From Nodosilinea sp. P-1105 (GTDB lineage Bacteria > Cyanobacteriota > Cyanobacteriia > Phormidesmidales > Phormidesmidaceae): a DNA stretch of 64,000 bases. The notes beneath the pieces are model-generated. The model did no database searches, was not told the DNA's origin, and saw only the letters and a program-made list of their open reading frames with translations. This document shows positions 1 through 57,530 of this stretch, piece by piece. The position numbers and the translations under genes are program-made. The stretch's first letter is position 1. Every line of letters begins with the position of its first letter. The stretch lies in NCBI RefSeq assembly GCF_012911975.1, contig NZ_SMDQ01000015.1, forward strand, positions 1 through 64,000, in the 5' to 3' direction.

Positions 1-76
1 CAACTCTATTTTCAGCGAGGTTTCTATGCTCTATCCCTGATGCAGCAAGCTCTCTAGGTACGTTGTCACCCGTTAA
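1..76. other. foreign sequence joined to the sbtA 3' fragment
   Basis: Read on the minus strand, the SbtA-like reading frame is clear down to about position 80 (ending in KTGVFL). It then continues open to the window edge as sequence unlike any SbtA C-terminus (it includes GDNVPRELAASG). The expected next transmembrane helix is missing. The simplest reading is that a second mobile element or a rearrangement joins sbtA here and only about 76 bp of it lies in the window. The first bases of the foreign side (TTAACGGGTGACAACG on the minus strand) could be an element end. I cannot name a family. Confidence 0.45.
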
Positions 77-273
77 GGTTAAAAACACGCCGGTTTTTTG
101 CAAGTCCTTAATTCTTCTGGCGGCGACTAAACCCATATCCAGCAAAAAGAAGGTGAGCACCCCATAAAACATCTCTTGGGTAAAGGGTGATAACACTTGC
201 CAGCCATGCTCCCCTGTGAGCATGCCGATAATCAGGCTACCCACCAACAAAAACACAGAACTATTGAGAAAGG
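77..273 (-). pseudogene. sbtA: sbtA, 3' fragment (bicarbonate transporter, interrupted)
   Basis: This is the middle-to-C-terminal part of a sodium-dependent bicarbonate transporter of the SbtA (DUF897) family. Minus-strand translation begins AFLNSSVFLLVGSLIIGM and runs through a hydrophobic helix to LLDMGLVAARRIKDLQKTGV, typical of the second half of SbtA. It is in the same frame as the 5' fragment at 2068-2580 once the IS66 insertion and one copy of its 8-bp target duplication are removed, which rebuilds REAFLNSS. Roughly 65 residues are readable before the sequence stops resembling SbtA near position 80. The fragment has no start codon of its own and is presumably non-functional. Confidence 0.8.
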
Positions 274-2067
274 CAACTTCTCAAAAAGTGCTGGTAGCCC
301 ACGAGCTACAGCTTGGGGTTTAGGTTGGGCTGTTTATCTGTCGCAGACCCGATGTCATCGCTCTAATCACATCGGGTAACGGCGGGATTTGCCCATCACC
401 GCGCAGTCGAGACAGCAACAATTGCCAAAAGGATAGGCCCAACTTCCGACAGGTTTTCTTCAGTCCGACGAACGTATCTCTGGCTCGTCGTCCGGCATCA
501 GAGCGAGTCCCCCCACTGACTTTGCGACGGGTGACGTATTCTCGAATATCCGACTCACCCGCATTGTTGTGTAACGGTACCTGAGGGAAATCGAGCATCC
601 GCAATAGCTCAGCCTTGTGGGCTCTAAATTGGCTCAAAACCGTATTGAGCGAGGCGTGGTGCAGGAAGCAGCGACCAAAGCATTGGTCAAAGGCTTGCTC
701 TAGGGTCTCTTTTCCGGCTGCGGTGGGCGCTTGTTGGTAAGCCTTGAGCTGCTGATAGTACTGCCATAAGCCTTGCTGCATCTCCTCAATGTTTTGCCGT
801 TGCTGGCGGGTATTGCCTTCTAAGCGACGCAGGGCCCGCTCGGCATGCACCCAACACAACGCATGGACGAGCACATTGAACTGGGGTGCCCCGTCACTGA
901 GTAGGATCAGGTGGCGATCCACCCCACGCTCAATCACCCCACCCAACAAGGCCGCTTCGCTCACCAGACGAACCGCTTGCGGTGTGACAATCCCTATCGA
1001 GGTGAGATACGTTTGCCACTGAACCGGATCTTGGGCCAGCACTTGAGCCGAAAAGGTCAGGTGCTGCCAATGTTTAGCCGCCAAGGAATACGATTGCAGA
1101 TACTGCTGAGCATACTCGTTGAGCACATAGCAGGGGGTCTCGCCTTGCAACGTCTCTAAAAAGCTCTGACGACTCTTCCGGGTCGTGGTTCTAAAGTAGG
1201 TAAAGTACGCATTCCCGATGACGGTGCAGTACCCGTTTTTGCCCTGGTGACGCGCACCAGTGTCATCAGTGTGCACATAGCTTGCCGTCTCTAACCCGAC
1301 CCGCAGCACCTGTTGCTGCTCAGCGTGGAAGCTCTCCTTGTTTTCGCTCAGCAGGTTGTGTACTTGGCCGGTTGAGATATCAATCCCCCACTCTTGCAAT
1401 TGCTCATGGATCAAGGGATGGGGCACTCGGCACTGATAATGTTGGTAAAGAATGTACCCTATCAGTAGTGGGCCGTAATGGCCATGGCGGTACTCCTCAG
1501 GCAATTGGCCGACTAGCGTGGTGCCATCTTCACAAACATACTCCGCTAAGCGGAAGCGGATGTTGTGCCGCTTCAGCGTTAACTCCTGCACGTCATAGTC
1601 GCGATAGCCGTTGAACTTAGCGGTGTCCGGAATAGCACTCGGGGGGATGATCCGTTCCTCATGGATCTCAAAGCCCACCTTCTTACTCCGCTTGGCTGAG
1701 CCAGGTCGCTTACCCTTGCTCTCGCCGTCTGTCTTAGGCAAGGGCTCATTCAGCCGACTGGGACCCAACTTAGGTTTCCCTTTCAGCTTCTTTTGCGCTC
1801 TGAGTTCGGCTTCTAGCTGCTCAATCCGCTCCTGCTGTTGCCTCAGTTGCCGTTCCAGAACCTCGATGGTTTTTTGCTGCCCTTGGATGGTGGCTTGCTG
1901 CTGACGCACTAGTGCAACCCAGCGATCCACACCATCAGAGGGGGCACTGGATAGGGCATGAGTGAGGACGGGGCTGCTGCTTGATGTCATGTCTCTGTTA
2001 GACCAGATTTTGTCTCTTTTTGCAATCCCTGGAGCCTGGCTTCACCAGCGGTTATTGAGAAATTGCT
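274..2067 (-). mobile_element. IS66-family insertion sequence, complete, inside sbtA
   Basis: The element is 1794 bp with one transposase gene on the minus strand. It is flanked by an 8-bp direct repeat, GAGAAAGG, at 266-273 and 2068-2075, the target-duplication length usual for IS66. The ends are imperfect inverted repeats: CAACTTCTCAAAAAGTGCTGG at the left and, on the opposite strand, CAATTTCTCAATAACCGCTGG at the right, followed by two extra bases. It carries only the large transposase and lacks the small accessory genes (tnpA, tnpB) of classical IS66 elements, like the single-gene IS66 subgroup. Intact ends, an intact transposase and a perfect target duplication suggest recent insertion. 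Confidence 0.9.
320..1990 (-). CDS. IS66 family transposase
   Basis: A 556-residue transposase that fills the element. Residues about 25-65 form a glutamine-rich coiled coil (QQQATIQGQQKTIEVLERQL) likely used for multimerisation, followed by a basic linker. The catalytic core shows a DDE-type pattern: HTDDTGARHQGKNGY for the first Asp, LILLSDGAPQFN for the second, and NNAGESDIREYV for the Glu near the C-terminus. Length and motif order fit IS66 TnpC. Its ATG overlaps by 4 nt (ATGA) the stop of the reading frame running in from the broken sbtA 5' fragment. The transposase could therefore be translationally coupled to sbtA and driven by the sbtA promoter. No frameshift is seen, so it is probably active. 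Confidence 0.93.
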   Translation of the reverse strand: MTSSSSPVLTHALSSAPSDGVDRWVALVRQQQATIQGQQKTIEVLERQLRQQQERIEQLEAELRAQKKLKGKPKLGPSRLNEPLPKTDGESKGKRPGSAKRSKKVGFEIHEERIIPPSAIPDTAKFNGYRDYDVQELTLKRHNIRFRLAEYVCEDGTTLVGQLPEEYRHGHYGPLLIGYILYQHYQCRVPHPLIHEQLQEWGIDISTGQVHNLLSENKESFHAEQQQVLRVGLETASYVHTDDTGARHQGKNGYCTVIGNAYFTYFRTTTRKSRQSFLETLQGETPCYVLNEYAQQYLQSYSLAAKHWQHLTFSAQVLAQDPVQWQTYLTSIGIVTPQAVRLVSEAALLGGVIERGVDRHLILLSDGAPQFNVLVHALCWVHAERALRRLEGNTRQQRQNIEEMQQGLWQYYQQLKAYQQAPTAAGKETLEQAFDQCFGRCFLHHASLNTVLSQFRAHKAELLRMLDFPQVPLHNNAGESDIREYVTRRKVSGGTRSDAGRRARDTFVGLKKTCRKLGLSFWQLLLSRLRGDGQIPPLPDVIRAMTSGLRQINSPT

Positions 2068-2580
2068 GAGAAAGGCTTCTCGGAGCACCTCTGACCAGGC
2101 AAACTCCCGCTTTTGATCCACTGTAAACAGGTTCACAAGAATTAGCCCGACAATAATGGCGGGGGATTCCATCAGGGCCAGTGCTGCCACCATAAACCCA
2201 TCAAAGTCGATGCCCAGCTCAGTCAAGAAGGCACTGGCCGTAATAAAGGTGACCGCACTAATGGAACCGTAAGTAGCTGCGATCGCGGCTGAATCGTAGG
2301 TATCTAGTTTGACTCGCAGAATAAAGTATGTGTACAGCGGTACCACACAAGCCATCAACATGGCTGCCAGCAGGGCAAGGACTACCTCCTGGGTTACACC
2401 ACTTTTGGTCAGCTCTACCCCACCCTTAAAACCTATAGCCAGTAACAAATATAGGGAAAAGAGCTTGGGAATTGGAGCCGGAATTTCCAAATCAGATTTC
2501 ACCAAAACCGCTATCATTCCTAAGAAGAAAAATAACACTGGCGGGTTCAAAATATTAGACATGATCAAATTGGCGTTCAT
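2068..2580 (-). pseudogene. sbtA: sbtA, 5' fragment (bicarbonate transporter, interrupted)
   Basis: This is the N-terminal half of a single-component sodium/bicarbonate symporter of the SbtA family, part of the CO2-concentrating mechanism of the plasma membrane. I place the start at the ATG at 2580 (MNANLIMSNILNPPVLFF), preceded by GGGAGAAG. A frame continues upstream to 2637 but is unlike the family. Several hydrophobic helices follow, with family-typical segments such as AIGFKGGVEL and ATYGSISAVTFITAS. After REAFL the protein enters IS66 sequence and ends about 26 residues later at 1987. The product would lack the second transmembrane bundle. The partner gene sbtB is not in the window. Confidence 0.85.
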
Positions 2581-12868: not shown

Positions 12869-16812
<3,944 letters not shown>

Positions 16813-54521: not shown

Positions 54522-57500
54522 CTAGATGCCTGGGGTAGCCAGGTTGCGGAAGCGGGTGAACTGGGGTTCAAATAATAACTTAACGGTCCCCGTAGGCCCA
54601 TTGCGGTGTTTGGTGACAATGATTTCAGCAATGCCGCGATCGGGGGTATCTGGGTCGTAGTACTCTTCGCGATACAGCATCATAATTAGGTCAGCATCCT
54701 GTTCAATTGCCCCTGAGTTGTGGGAAACAATGCCGTCTGCTAACCACGAAGCAGGCCCCGGTACAGTCAGGTCATAGACTGGCTCTTCCCCTACAGGCTC
54801 GATAGAAACAACCTCATCCCAAAAAATATCGGCTGAGGCAATCTCTTCAAGGTCTTGGGCTACCGCAACTCGACTTCCTTTCTTTAGATACTCAAGTGGC
54901 TGCCAGCCGTCGAGGGTGTAGAGCCGGTGCTTTTCGGTGGCTCGAATTTTGCGCCCGCTAGCAGTAGTCAATTCATAAACCGGACGAGTACCAACTTGCC
55001 ACACCAAATCGGCCTTAGCCTGGGTGAGCTTACCATGGGCATCTAAGCTAATTACCTCTGGGGTACTGCCCACCAACGCTTGAATCGGCACTCGTTGACC
55101 GTTGGCCAGGACAACCAGCGTATCGCCAGTGACGCACTCCCGTAAATCGCTCATCATTGGGCGTTTGTTGGTGCGAGATTCGACCCCCCGGCTGAGCTGG
55201 GAGAGGGCAATGATCGGCACGTTCAGTTCCCGGGCCAGGCCCTTGAGCGATCGCGTCATCTTCGACAGCTCCTGCACCCGGTTATCACCGCCCCCTTCCA
55301 TCAGCTGCAGGTAGTCGATCAAAATCAGCCCCAGGGCACCTCCCTGTTCCGCCTGCAACCGCCGACAGCGGGAGCGAATCTCGGTCACCGAAATATTGGG
55401 GGTATCGTCAATGAACACCGGCATCTGGGACAGAACGCTGATGGCATGGCCTAGCTTTTCCCATTCATGTTGGGCAATGCGCCCGGTGCGCAGGCGGCTG
55501 CTCTCCATTTCCACTTCGCTCGACAGCAGGCGATAGACCAGCTGTACCTTGGACATTTCCAGGCTGTAGATCGCCACCGGCAATTTCTGGAGGGCCGCAA
55601 TGTTGCGAGCAATATTCAACACAAAGCTGGTGTTGTGGACACAGATATCGTTGGCCACAAAGTTGTGGGTATCGGGAACGGTGAGATCGTAGACCTGCTT
55701 AGTCCCCTGGGGTTCGATCGCCACAATCTCATCCCAGTAGACATCGCTGGTAGCGATGTGCTGAAGTTCGCTATGCTCTAGGGCGGTTGCCAGGGCAAAC
55801 AGGCGATGGCGGCTGGGTGCCCGTTTGCCAACATGGATATTGCTGGTGCTCTGGAACCCGGCACGGGTGGCCAGGGAAGCCCAGGATTTATCGCCCTTGG
55901 CGGCACGAAGCATCTCCCACACCTCAAGGGGGATCAGGTCGCGGTTGGTCTGGTAGCGACGGCTGGTCAGGGCCGTTGCCACCTTGGCCAGGGCGGCTTC
56001 TTTGCCAAAAATCCCGATGTCACTCAGGAAAGTCTTGATCGAGGGAGCATCGGTGATGTCGAGTTGCCAGGCGGGGCGGTGGCTATCCAGATATTTAACA
56101 GATCGGGCTTTGAGCTGAGACAAGATGCCAAACCGCAGCAGCAAATGCTGGACTTGGCGGGCCAGGATTTCGCTAACGGTGGCAAACCCCAACTGGGCTT
56201 GTCCCGAAGCCAGCACGGTAGCCCAGCCATCGGTAGCAAATAGGCGATTCAGGAAGAGGGCGAGGAGCGATTTGTTGAGCCGAAAGACAGCCGCCGGAAT
56301 AGTTTTCTGGTGGGCTGACTTACCCCAGCTCCCCAGCTCTTGCAGCCAAAGTGTCAGGTTGTTTTGACTCATCCAACGGATGGTGGCAAGGCCGCCTTGA
56401 GACGTTTCTTGGCGTACCTTTACCCCTGGGAACTGAAGGGCGGCGGCAGTAAAGTCGGCCTGGATAGCCGGGTCCTGGTTGGTGAATTGGGGTGAGGTAC
56501 TTGTCAGACAGCCATCGCCGATCAGGTAGGCCAGCAGCTTAACCTGATAGTCAGGCAAGGTTTCGGTGCCAAACACCGGCAGTATTCTGGGCACCGCTAT
56601 TTTTTGACCCACGGCCAGCTCTGCCAAGGGCCGCCAACCCTGAATGGTGAGGTAGGGGTGGCTCAGGGTAGTCTCGATCTCTCGTCCCGATCGCGTTTTC
56701 ACCCGAAACACCGGCTTTTGACCGTCGTCTACGTAAGCACTGGGCTGAGTGAGCCGCAAGCGCCAGTCAGCCCCCAGGGTGAGCAGGGAAGCAGACTGCT
56801 GCTGATAAATCTCGCCAATGGTTTTGAGGCTGCCATCGGCCAGCACAATCTGGGCATCAGCGCTGAGGCATTTACCCATGGATGGTCTGGCCGCCGCGAT
56901 AATCAGATCAGAGCGCTGGAACCCCTGGGTCATGGCATCCAGGTCATAGAAGCCACAGGGTACACCGGGCAGCACCACCCCCAGGGAGCGCTGCTCAATT
57001 TCTGAGAAGGTATCGATCAAAATATCTGAGGTGGCGGTCAGGCCTCCCTGGGGCCGCACCTGGGTAATGCCAAACAGCTTTTGCTCTGACTGGTCCAGGA
57101 CATTTTCCAGGGGAATGGTGGTGTCATAGCCCAGCTGCGAAATCTCGCCCCCGGTCTGAATCAGCAGCCGCCGGGTGTACTTATCCATCACCAGGGTGGC
57201 GTACTGGTCGATGTTGGCAGCACTGGTGGTGCGATCCACCAGTTGGGCAATGCGGGTTTGCCCTCCCACCTTCTCCAACTTGTCGTGGTCTTTTAACCAG
57301 ACCGTGATCGTCATCAAATCCGTGGGCTGGCCCTTGGCATGCAGGTCCAGGGCCGCCCGATAAATATCTTTGTGGGCCCCAATGTAAAAGGCATCAGGGG
57401 TGAGGATTTCCATCACCCGGCCAATGGCTTCAGGATCTAGCAGAATGCCACCCAAGATCGCCTCTTCGGCCTCAATGTTCTGGGGTGGTAGGCGATCGCT

Positions 57501-57530
57501 GACCGCATCAAACTTGAGATTCTGAACCAT
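54522..57530 (-). CDS. dnaB: replicative DNA helicase DnaB with two inteins
   Basis: A 1002-residue precursor. The exteins (residues 1-220, 634-798, 939-1002) join to a normal 449-residue DnaB: N-terminal domain (PPQNIEAEEAILGGILLDPE) and RecA-like motor (LILIDYLQLM, IALSQLSRGVESR, AIEQDADLIMMLYREEYY). Intein 1 (221-633) splits the Walker A loop between SMGK and TSF. Intein 2 (799-938) sits between SDLRE and SGAIEQDAD. Each begins with Cys and ends HN, followed by Thr or Ser, so both look splicing-competent. Without splicing of intein 1 there can be no ATP binding. rplI lies upstream on the same strand, a common pairing. Confidence 0.96.
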   Translation of the reverse strand: MVQNLKFDAVSDRLPPQNIEAEEAILGGILLDPEAIGRVMEILTPDAFYIGAHKDIYRAALDLHAKGQPTDLMTITVWLKDHDKLEKVGGQTRIAQLVDRTTSAANIDQYATLVMDKYTRRLLIQTGGEISQLGYDTTIPLENVLDQSEQKLFGITQVRPQGGLTATSDILIDTFSEIEQRSLGVVLPGVPCGFYDLDAMTQGFQRSDLIIAAARPSMGKCLSADAQIVLADGSLKTIGEIYQQQSASLLTLGADWRLRLTQPSAYVDDGQKPVFRVKTRSGREIETTLSHPYLTIQGWRPLAELAVGQKIAVPRILPVFGTETLPDYQVKLLAYLIGDGCLTSTSPQFTNQDPAIQADFTAAALQFPGVKVRQETSQGGLATIRWMSQNNLTLWLQELGSWGKSAHQKTIPAAVFRLNKSLLALFLNRLFATDGWATVLASGQAQLGFATVSEILARQVQHLLLRFGILSQLKARSVKYLDSHRPAWQLDITDAPSIKTFLSDIGIFGKEAALAKVATALTSRRYQTNRDLIPLEVWEMLRAAKGDKSWASLATRAGFQSTSNIHVGKRAPSRHRLFALATALEHSELQHIATSDVYWDEIVAIEPQGTKQVYDLTVPDTHNFVANDICVHNTSFVLNIARNIAALQKLPVAIYSLEMSKVQLVYRLLSSEVEMESSRLRTGRIAQHEWEKLGHAISVLSQMPVFIDDTPNISVTEIRSRCRRLQAEQGGALGLILIDYLQLMEGGGDNRVQELSKMTRSLKGLARELNVPIIALSQLSRGVESRTNKRPMMSDLRECVTGDTLVVLANGQRVPIQALVGSTPEVISLDAHGKLTQAKADLVWQVGTRPVYELTTASGRKIRATEKHRLYTLDGWQPLEYLKKGSRVAVAQDLEEIASADIFWDEVVSIEPVGEEPVYDLTVPGPASWLADGIVSHNSGAIEQDADLIMMLYREEYYDPDTPDRGIAEIIVTKHRNGPTGTVKLLFEPQFTRFRNLATPGI
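54717..55136 (-). other. intein 2 of DnaB, mini-intein
   Basis: A 140-residue intein with no endonuclease. Block A starts CVTGDTLVVLANGQRVPI. Block B holds KIRATEKHRLYTLDGW (TxxH-like). Block F is EEPVYDLTVPGPASWLADG, and the end is IVSHN before Ser. The insertion point, between SDLRE and S-IEQDAD, corresponds to the site of the well-studied Synechocystis DnaB intein. Its minimal size means it has lost its homing function and persists only by splicing. Confidence 0.93.
55632..56870 (-). other. intein 1 of DnaB, with LAGLIDADG homing endonuclease
   Basis: A 413-residue intein. Block A is CLSADAQIVLADGSLKTIGE. Block B contains ETTLSHPYLTIQGWRPL with the conserved TxxH. The endonuclease has two LAGLIDADG-type motifs, VKLLAYLIGDGCLTS and FLNRLFATDGWATV, with acidic Asp in each. 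Block F is VYDLTVPDTHNFVAND, and the end is ICVHN before Thr. It lies in the P-loop (GK|T), the most conserved point of the helicase. The endonuclease reads through without stops, so homing may still be possible. Confidence 0.93.

Follow-up and report, generated by a model that had tools for sequence, protein, structure and literature searches.

A short-type, SbtA2-like bicarbonate transporter gene of Nodosilinea sp. P-1105, very probably inactivated recently by more than one insertion sequence

Introduction

The first 2,580 positions of the 64,000-nucleotide stretch of Nodosilinea sp. P-1105 DNA analysed here (the window) carry pieces of an sbtA-type gene on both sides of an insertion sequence (IS), and raise the question of which transporter was lost, by how many insertions and how long ago. 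The first-pass annotation had read this locus as the high-affinity bicarbonate transporter gene sbtA, knocked out by one recent IS66 insertion that possibly arose in culture under high CO2. We compared the locus with the rest of the assembly, in which the window begins at the end of a 99,937-bp contig (C57), and with 25 same-genus relatives. Further along, the window encodes a phycobilisome linker protein of 1077 aa that contains four linker repeats and is presumably ApcE-like (12869-16102, minus strand), and a DnaB helicase with an in-frame intein that carries a LAGLIDADG homing endonuclease domain (54522-57530, minus strand).

Results

An IS66-family element splits an Sbt_1 gene

Both flanks of the IS66 element belonged to a single minus-strand gene of the Sbt_1 family (PF05982). 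Codons 1 to ~169 (~171 with the duplication), comprising TM1-5 by inspection, lie at 2075-2580 (ATG at 2580; PF05982 positions 1-163, 205 bits), and codons ~171-233, the TM6-7 region by inspection, lie at 78-264 (PF05982 match, profile positions 154-238). Joined in a script without the element, the flanks gave one frame of 233 residues, of about 322 codons, which aligned gaplessly and with 88-91% identity to the short-type sbtA of all 15 same-genus relatives that carry this gene. The proposed insertion into an sbtA-type gene is thus borne out, since the insert was absent from this site in all 15 of these genomes (0/15), and the pattern of relatives sharing the insertion next to an intact second sbtA was not found. 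Their short-type frames measure 322-332 aa in 14 genomes; that of the remaining one (G025, L053) reaches 316 aa and shows an in-frame stop close to its 3' end. The two pieces had been described as SbtA halves; they are in frame, but the downstream piece amounts to only ~63 codons (78-265), because window 1-77 is not sbtA and is the end of another repeat.

The element spans 1794 bp (273-2066, minus strand) between terminal repeats GCAACTTCTCAA and GCAATTTCTCAA, and is bordered by a perfect 8-bp target-site duplication (TSD), with copies of TGAGAAAG at 265-272 on the left and 2067-2074 on the right. Because the string common to both flanks is 9 bp long (TGAGAAAGG), the position of the ends is uncertain by one base; the intact duplication originally reported, GAGAAAGG at 266-273 and 2068-2075, corresponds to the alternative ends 274-2067, and the placement at 273-2066 fits the terminal repeats better. 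Members of the IS66 family usually carry tnpA/tnpB. The window's element shares with the family a 556-aa DDE transposase (320-1990, minus strand; PF03050, 73.2 bits, cut-off 23.1), the 8-bp duplication on both sides and short terminal inverted repeats, and differs in that its transposase remains below the NCBIfam IS66 cut-off (NF033517, 131 vs 180 bits). The transposase gene runs in the direction of sbtA, whose promoter could now drive its transcription.

The element was single-copy in the assembly, with one 67% relative on contig C124, and megablast with its DNA gave no match in plasmids. At a threshold of 1e-10, three of the 26 genus genomes (the window's genome counted) had a match, one of them (G018) over 219 bp only, at 74%. 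In the nearest relative, Shackletoniella antarctica (G023), at least nine places matched one end of the element with 89-91% identity and at least two matched the other end with 82-85%, counts that are lower bounds since no more than 12 of the 42 candidates received a score. Because at least 11 end matches were found there, a close relative of the window's element appears to be multicopy in this genome. Most of the matches there (loci L243, L245-L252 for the nine places) stop at 142 bp, maybe at an assembly overlap.

An IS4-family end cuts the same gene a second time

Ten further contigs ended in sequence 100% identical to window 1-77, with flanks that diverged directly beyond it, as expected where a multicopy repeat breaks an assembly. 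We assign these terminal 77 bp, at which C57 ends, to a multicopy IS4-family element on the basis of a related copy in Nodosilinea nodulosa PCC 7104 (G008), the element's interior not being seen in the window's genome. The G008 element is complete (~1.32 kb, terminal CTTAACGGGTGACAA), has a 9-bp duplication in two of the three copies looked at, and encodes a transposase that reaches 304.5 bits against NF033591 (cut-off 152). Because such an end adjoins sbtA codon 233 at window 77/78, the gene is cut a second time. The expected copy of the 9-bp duplication is GTTAAAAAC at 78-86, and no contig with the matching 9-mer was found in the assembly.

The window's genome has 11 right ends of this element (on C57, C101, C175, C165, C193, C41, C152, C140, C38, C37 and C13) and 10 left ends, the latter found with the G008 query at 77% identity, so that weaker ends could be missed. 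An identical 9-mer links eight of these 11 right ends to a left end each, and the sbtA copy is one of the three for which no such partner was found. No similarity to sbtA or sbtB was seen at the retrieved ends of the contigs left unpaired, namely C142 and C19 among the left ends and C193 and C38 among the right ends. The eight copies that can be closed across contigs by their matching duplications would scaffold the assembly. A SulP-family gene on C19 (L222, first ~1.5 kb) starts at a left IS4-family end and its first ~60 profile positions were not seen, so that the IS4-family element may have interrupted another anion-transporter gene as well.

When the assembly was queried with a relative's DNA from codon 234 on, the 3' part of sbtA (last ~89 codons) had no match, and no other Sbt_1 protein was found in the assembly. 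The core domain of Sbt proteins is formed by helices 3-5 and 8-10, as described in the excerpts of PMC13249358. With the IS66 element lying between helices 5 and 6, and everything beyond about helix 7 cut off by the second element (helices by inspection), we would not expect a working transporter from the locus; at best, a 5-helix fragment would be made.

The broken gene is of a short kind, distinct from classical SbtA

We sorted the Sbt_1 proteins of the 25 relatives by E-value and frame length into a short (~322-332 aa) and a long kind. Both kinds were present in 12 genomes, the short alone in three, the long alone in seven (including G024, whose long form is in two pieces) and neither in three (one of them 86% complete), while the window's genome has the broken short protein only. 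A tree of 29 of 31 Sbt_1 proteins from the genus and the class (24 short, 5 long; L015 and L026 were dropped, having no full frame) separated short from long with 100/100 support, at a bootstrap not fully settled, and placed the broken gene within the short kind, at a position there that was not resolved. Consistently, the identity of the broken protein was 59-91% to short forms and 22-28% to long ones, computed over the greater part of the alignment.

Classical SbtA1 (Synechocystis Slr1512, PDB 7cye) belongs to the same Pfam family, Sbt_1, but has 374 aa and a long loop between helices 5 and 6, compared with ~322 aa for the short form. A long form matched the solved structure with 529 bits, and a relative's intact short form (324 aa, longest frame) with 95 bits. 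On these scores, the low identity and the separate tree branch, we rejected identity with classical SbtA. The excerpts of a 2026 review (PMC13249358) describe SbtA2/SbtB2, an SbtA-like protein apart from SbtA1 with a PII-like SbtB2/SbtB-like partner, and give marine SbtA2 an intermediate affinity (Km about 150 uM). The broken gene shares with this family the separation from SbtA1 and, in relatives, an adjacent gene for a PII-like partner, which here is without the CGPxGC motif. The family is known, in the same excerpts, from marine Synechococcus, and we liken the window's gene to it by description. Thus, the broken gene is a deeply separate short form, probably of SbtA2 type, and the label 'high-affinity' is not supported for it.

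The operon-like row continues on another contig

In relatives, the sbtA-like gene is followed, in an operon-like row, by a PII-like sbtB-like gene and a Tat-type beta-carbonic anhydrase gene. A ~103-aa frame directly after sbtA was listed in 13 of the 15 relatives, a longer overlapping frame hiding the place in the other two, and the next frame, of ~235-284 aa, was present in all 15. The one ~103-aa frame tested (L047) is P-II by Pfam and has no CGPxGC motif. The second frame corresponds to the carbonic anhydrase, with PF00484 in the copy of the window's genome and an N-terminus that looks Tat-type by inspection.

The relative's DNA from sbtA codon 234 on matched this carbonic anhydrase region on contig C185 with 74% identity, and the same query did not find the first two thirds of sbtB in the assembly. 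Ahead of the intact carbonic anhydrase frame, C185 retains the last ~32 codons of sbtB, directly bordered by a repeat; contig C23 has the same repeat edge, to the base (95% over 374 bp). This repeat contains a 71-aa frame that resembles the N-termini of ISKra4 transposases and is 53.5% identical to an annotated one; this piece reached 17.7 bits against NF033572 (E 0.0015, cut-off 205) and had no Pfam match. Because of the gene order in relatives, C57 and C185 would formerly have been adjacent, and the missing ~485 bp would have been deleted or lie in a small unassembled piece between the two repeats.

The loss is recent on the scale of species divergence

We found no stop or frameshift in the 233 sbtA codons, which sets a 95% bound of ~0.12 neutral changes per site. 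Pairs that include the broken gene had a mean omega (NG86) of 0.028, taken over 14 of the 15 (the L057 pair, with a dS of -1, was left out), and intact relatives compared with each other had 0.030, with dS near saturation, as it is above 1; the mean dS of 1.958 still includes the L057 pair. The broken gene had seven private replacements, mostly conservative, among 201 columns that do not vary across the 15 relatives, compared with 0-2 in each relative. These may reflect a longer branch, mean dN being 0.059 for the broken gene vs 0.030 and its lineage lying about twice as far from the others in dN and dS, or some relaxed constraint. Even if all seven were assumed to postdate the loss, neutral divergence would be ~0.016 (upper 0.033).

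The dS to the nearest relative was 1.4. Because of the low dN/dS, the lack of stops and the small neutral-divergence bounds set against this value, the loss of sbtA is recent in terms of species divergence. The earlier dating of the event as recent is retained in this evolutionary sense, on codon evidence, and not on the argument from the duplication, since a perfect TSD alone sets the weak bound of < ~0.19 neutral changes per site; we rejected it as proof of a very recent event.

Other inorganic-carbon uptake genes are retained

The contig of the broken sbtA also encodes, outside the window, an intact 566-aa BicA (C57:84586-86286; L061:586-2286), with 925 bits against NCBIfam BicA (cut-off 880) and 579 bits to 6ki1, which we take to be the BicA structure. 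A second BicA-like protein, on C163, reached 474 bits to 6ki1; two of the eight SulP matches in the genome were compared with solved structures and one with NCBIfam. Two ChpXY proteins are encoded on C145 and C26, and at least one was present in 26/26 genus genomes.

Nine NMT1_2 matches were found in the genome, seven of them over the cut-off. The best-scoring solved structures mark the C117 operon as nitrate-type, its nrtA-like protein reaching 673 bits to NrtA vs 438 to the bicarbonate-binding 2i48 and its nrtC-like protein 1037 to NrtC vs 894 to CmpC, and two further NMT1_2 proteins were about equally distant from NrtA and CmpA. Among the four of nine matches compared with solved structures, there was no clear case of cmpABCD. 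The search suggested at the outset for another sbtA, bicA or cmpABCD thus gave no second Sbt_1 gene in the assembly and no clear cmpABCD among the candidates compared, and gave BicA on the same contig. Inorganic-carbon uptake would now rest on BicA and the NDH-1 CO2-uptake complexes.

Discussion

The locus is, very probably, a bicarbonate transporter gene of the short, SbtA2-like type that was hit by more than one IS and lost its function recently. In this reading, an IS66 element transposed, with its 8-bp duplication, into the loop between the two 5-helix repeats of sbtA, a multicopy IS4-family element inserted ~63 codons beyond that site, and an ISKra4-like element abuts the remains of sbtB on the contig that still carries the intact carbonic anhydrase frame. 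Some caveats attach to this explanation: the assembly could mix strains or the allele belong to a sub-population (contamination estimate 3.71%), the stretch now missing could sit on a short contig that was not assembled, the placing of C57 next to C185 depends on gene order in relatives, and the seven private replacements could hint at some relaxed constraint.

That a single recent IS66 insertion knocked out classical high-affinity SbtA in culture under high CO2 is quite improbable. The perfect duplication and an omega that is not relaxed would fit it, and IS insertions at sbt loci are known from laboratory growth, though linked there to reduced carbon (excerpts of PMC8763236); however, the gene is of the short type, only 22-28% identical to the long SbtA1 type, and nothing in the data dates the loss to culture. 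The loss of function originally claimed stands for a gene knocked out by IS66, but not for the characterised high-affinity SbtA (95 vs 529 bits), and the event was not a single one, given the second IS end in the same gene at window 1-77 and the further IS-like edge on the sbtB side. These same multiple hits (two elements at the least, and probably three, within a single operon), together with the missing sequence and the seven private replacements vs 0-2 in each of the 15 relatives, could instead mark an old pseudogene that long served as a landing pad for IS elements. We hold this to be very improbable, since the 233 codons are free of stops and frameshifts, omega is 0.028 vs 0.030, and neutral divergence stays at ~0.016 (upper 0.033) even with all seven replacements placed after the loss, vs a dS of 1.4.

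A chimeric join or strain mixture in place of a real insertion would be in keeping with an assembly of 195 contigs, the contamination estimate of 3.71% and a contig break inside the same gene, but is extremely improbable. A false join at the IS66 junctions, a misassembly considered from the start, is unlikely because the element is single-copy in the assembly, leaving no near-identical repeat to cause one; moreover, the TSD is perfect, and the pairing of 8 of 11 right IS4-family ends by perfect 9-mers speaks for a clean assembly. Beyond multiple insertion as such, the loss of the short-type sbtA-sbtB operon might have been selected, different IS elements striking within a short evolutionary time since shutting it off pays; this is unlikely in our judgement, and shut-off would pay where bicarbonate is plentiful and BicA suffices, or as a saving of the sodium gradient.

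The kind of event is already known, IS strikes at sbt genes having been published for Acaryochloris. According to the excerpts of PMC8763236, laboratory evolution of Acaryochloris marina CCMEE 5410 gave rise to ISAm1 insertions both at sbtAB and in an sbtA homologue (seven populations, 9-27% frequency), which were linked to reduced carbon and not to high CO2. As far as these excerpts go, that case shares with ours an IS in an sbtA-type gene beside an sbtB homologue and several insertions at carbon-uptake loci; it differs in the IS, in concerning laboratory populations, in sbtAB alleles that are mostly intergenic, and in an sbtA homologue 45% identical to SbtA, compared with 22-28% to the long type here. 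Natural Microcystis strains without sbtA or bicA, or with incomplete bicA, appear in the excerpts of PMC4840274, which do not name a transposon as the cause. Our literature search for IS-broken sbtA did not return the present instance.

The broken gene is a modest, well-supported pseudogene, a loss of an ordinary kind that other carbon-uptake genes cushion. It puts right a probable misannotation, the label of high-affinity SbtA on short-type SbtA-like genes, and is a further natural example of a cyanobacterial carbon-uptake gene lost to IS elements, here with bicA kept on the same contig. If the repeated strikes were selected, the locus would be a natural counterpart to the laboratory-evolution result, a parallel to the recurrent sbt insertions of Acaryochloris; if they were not, the pseudogene is an ordinary one.
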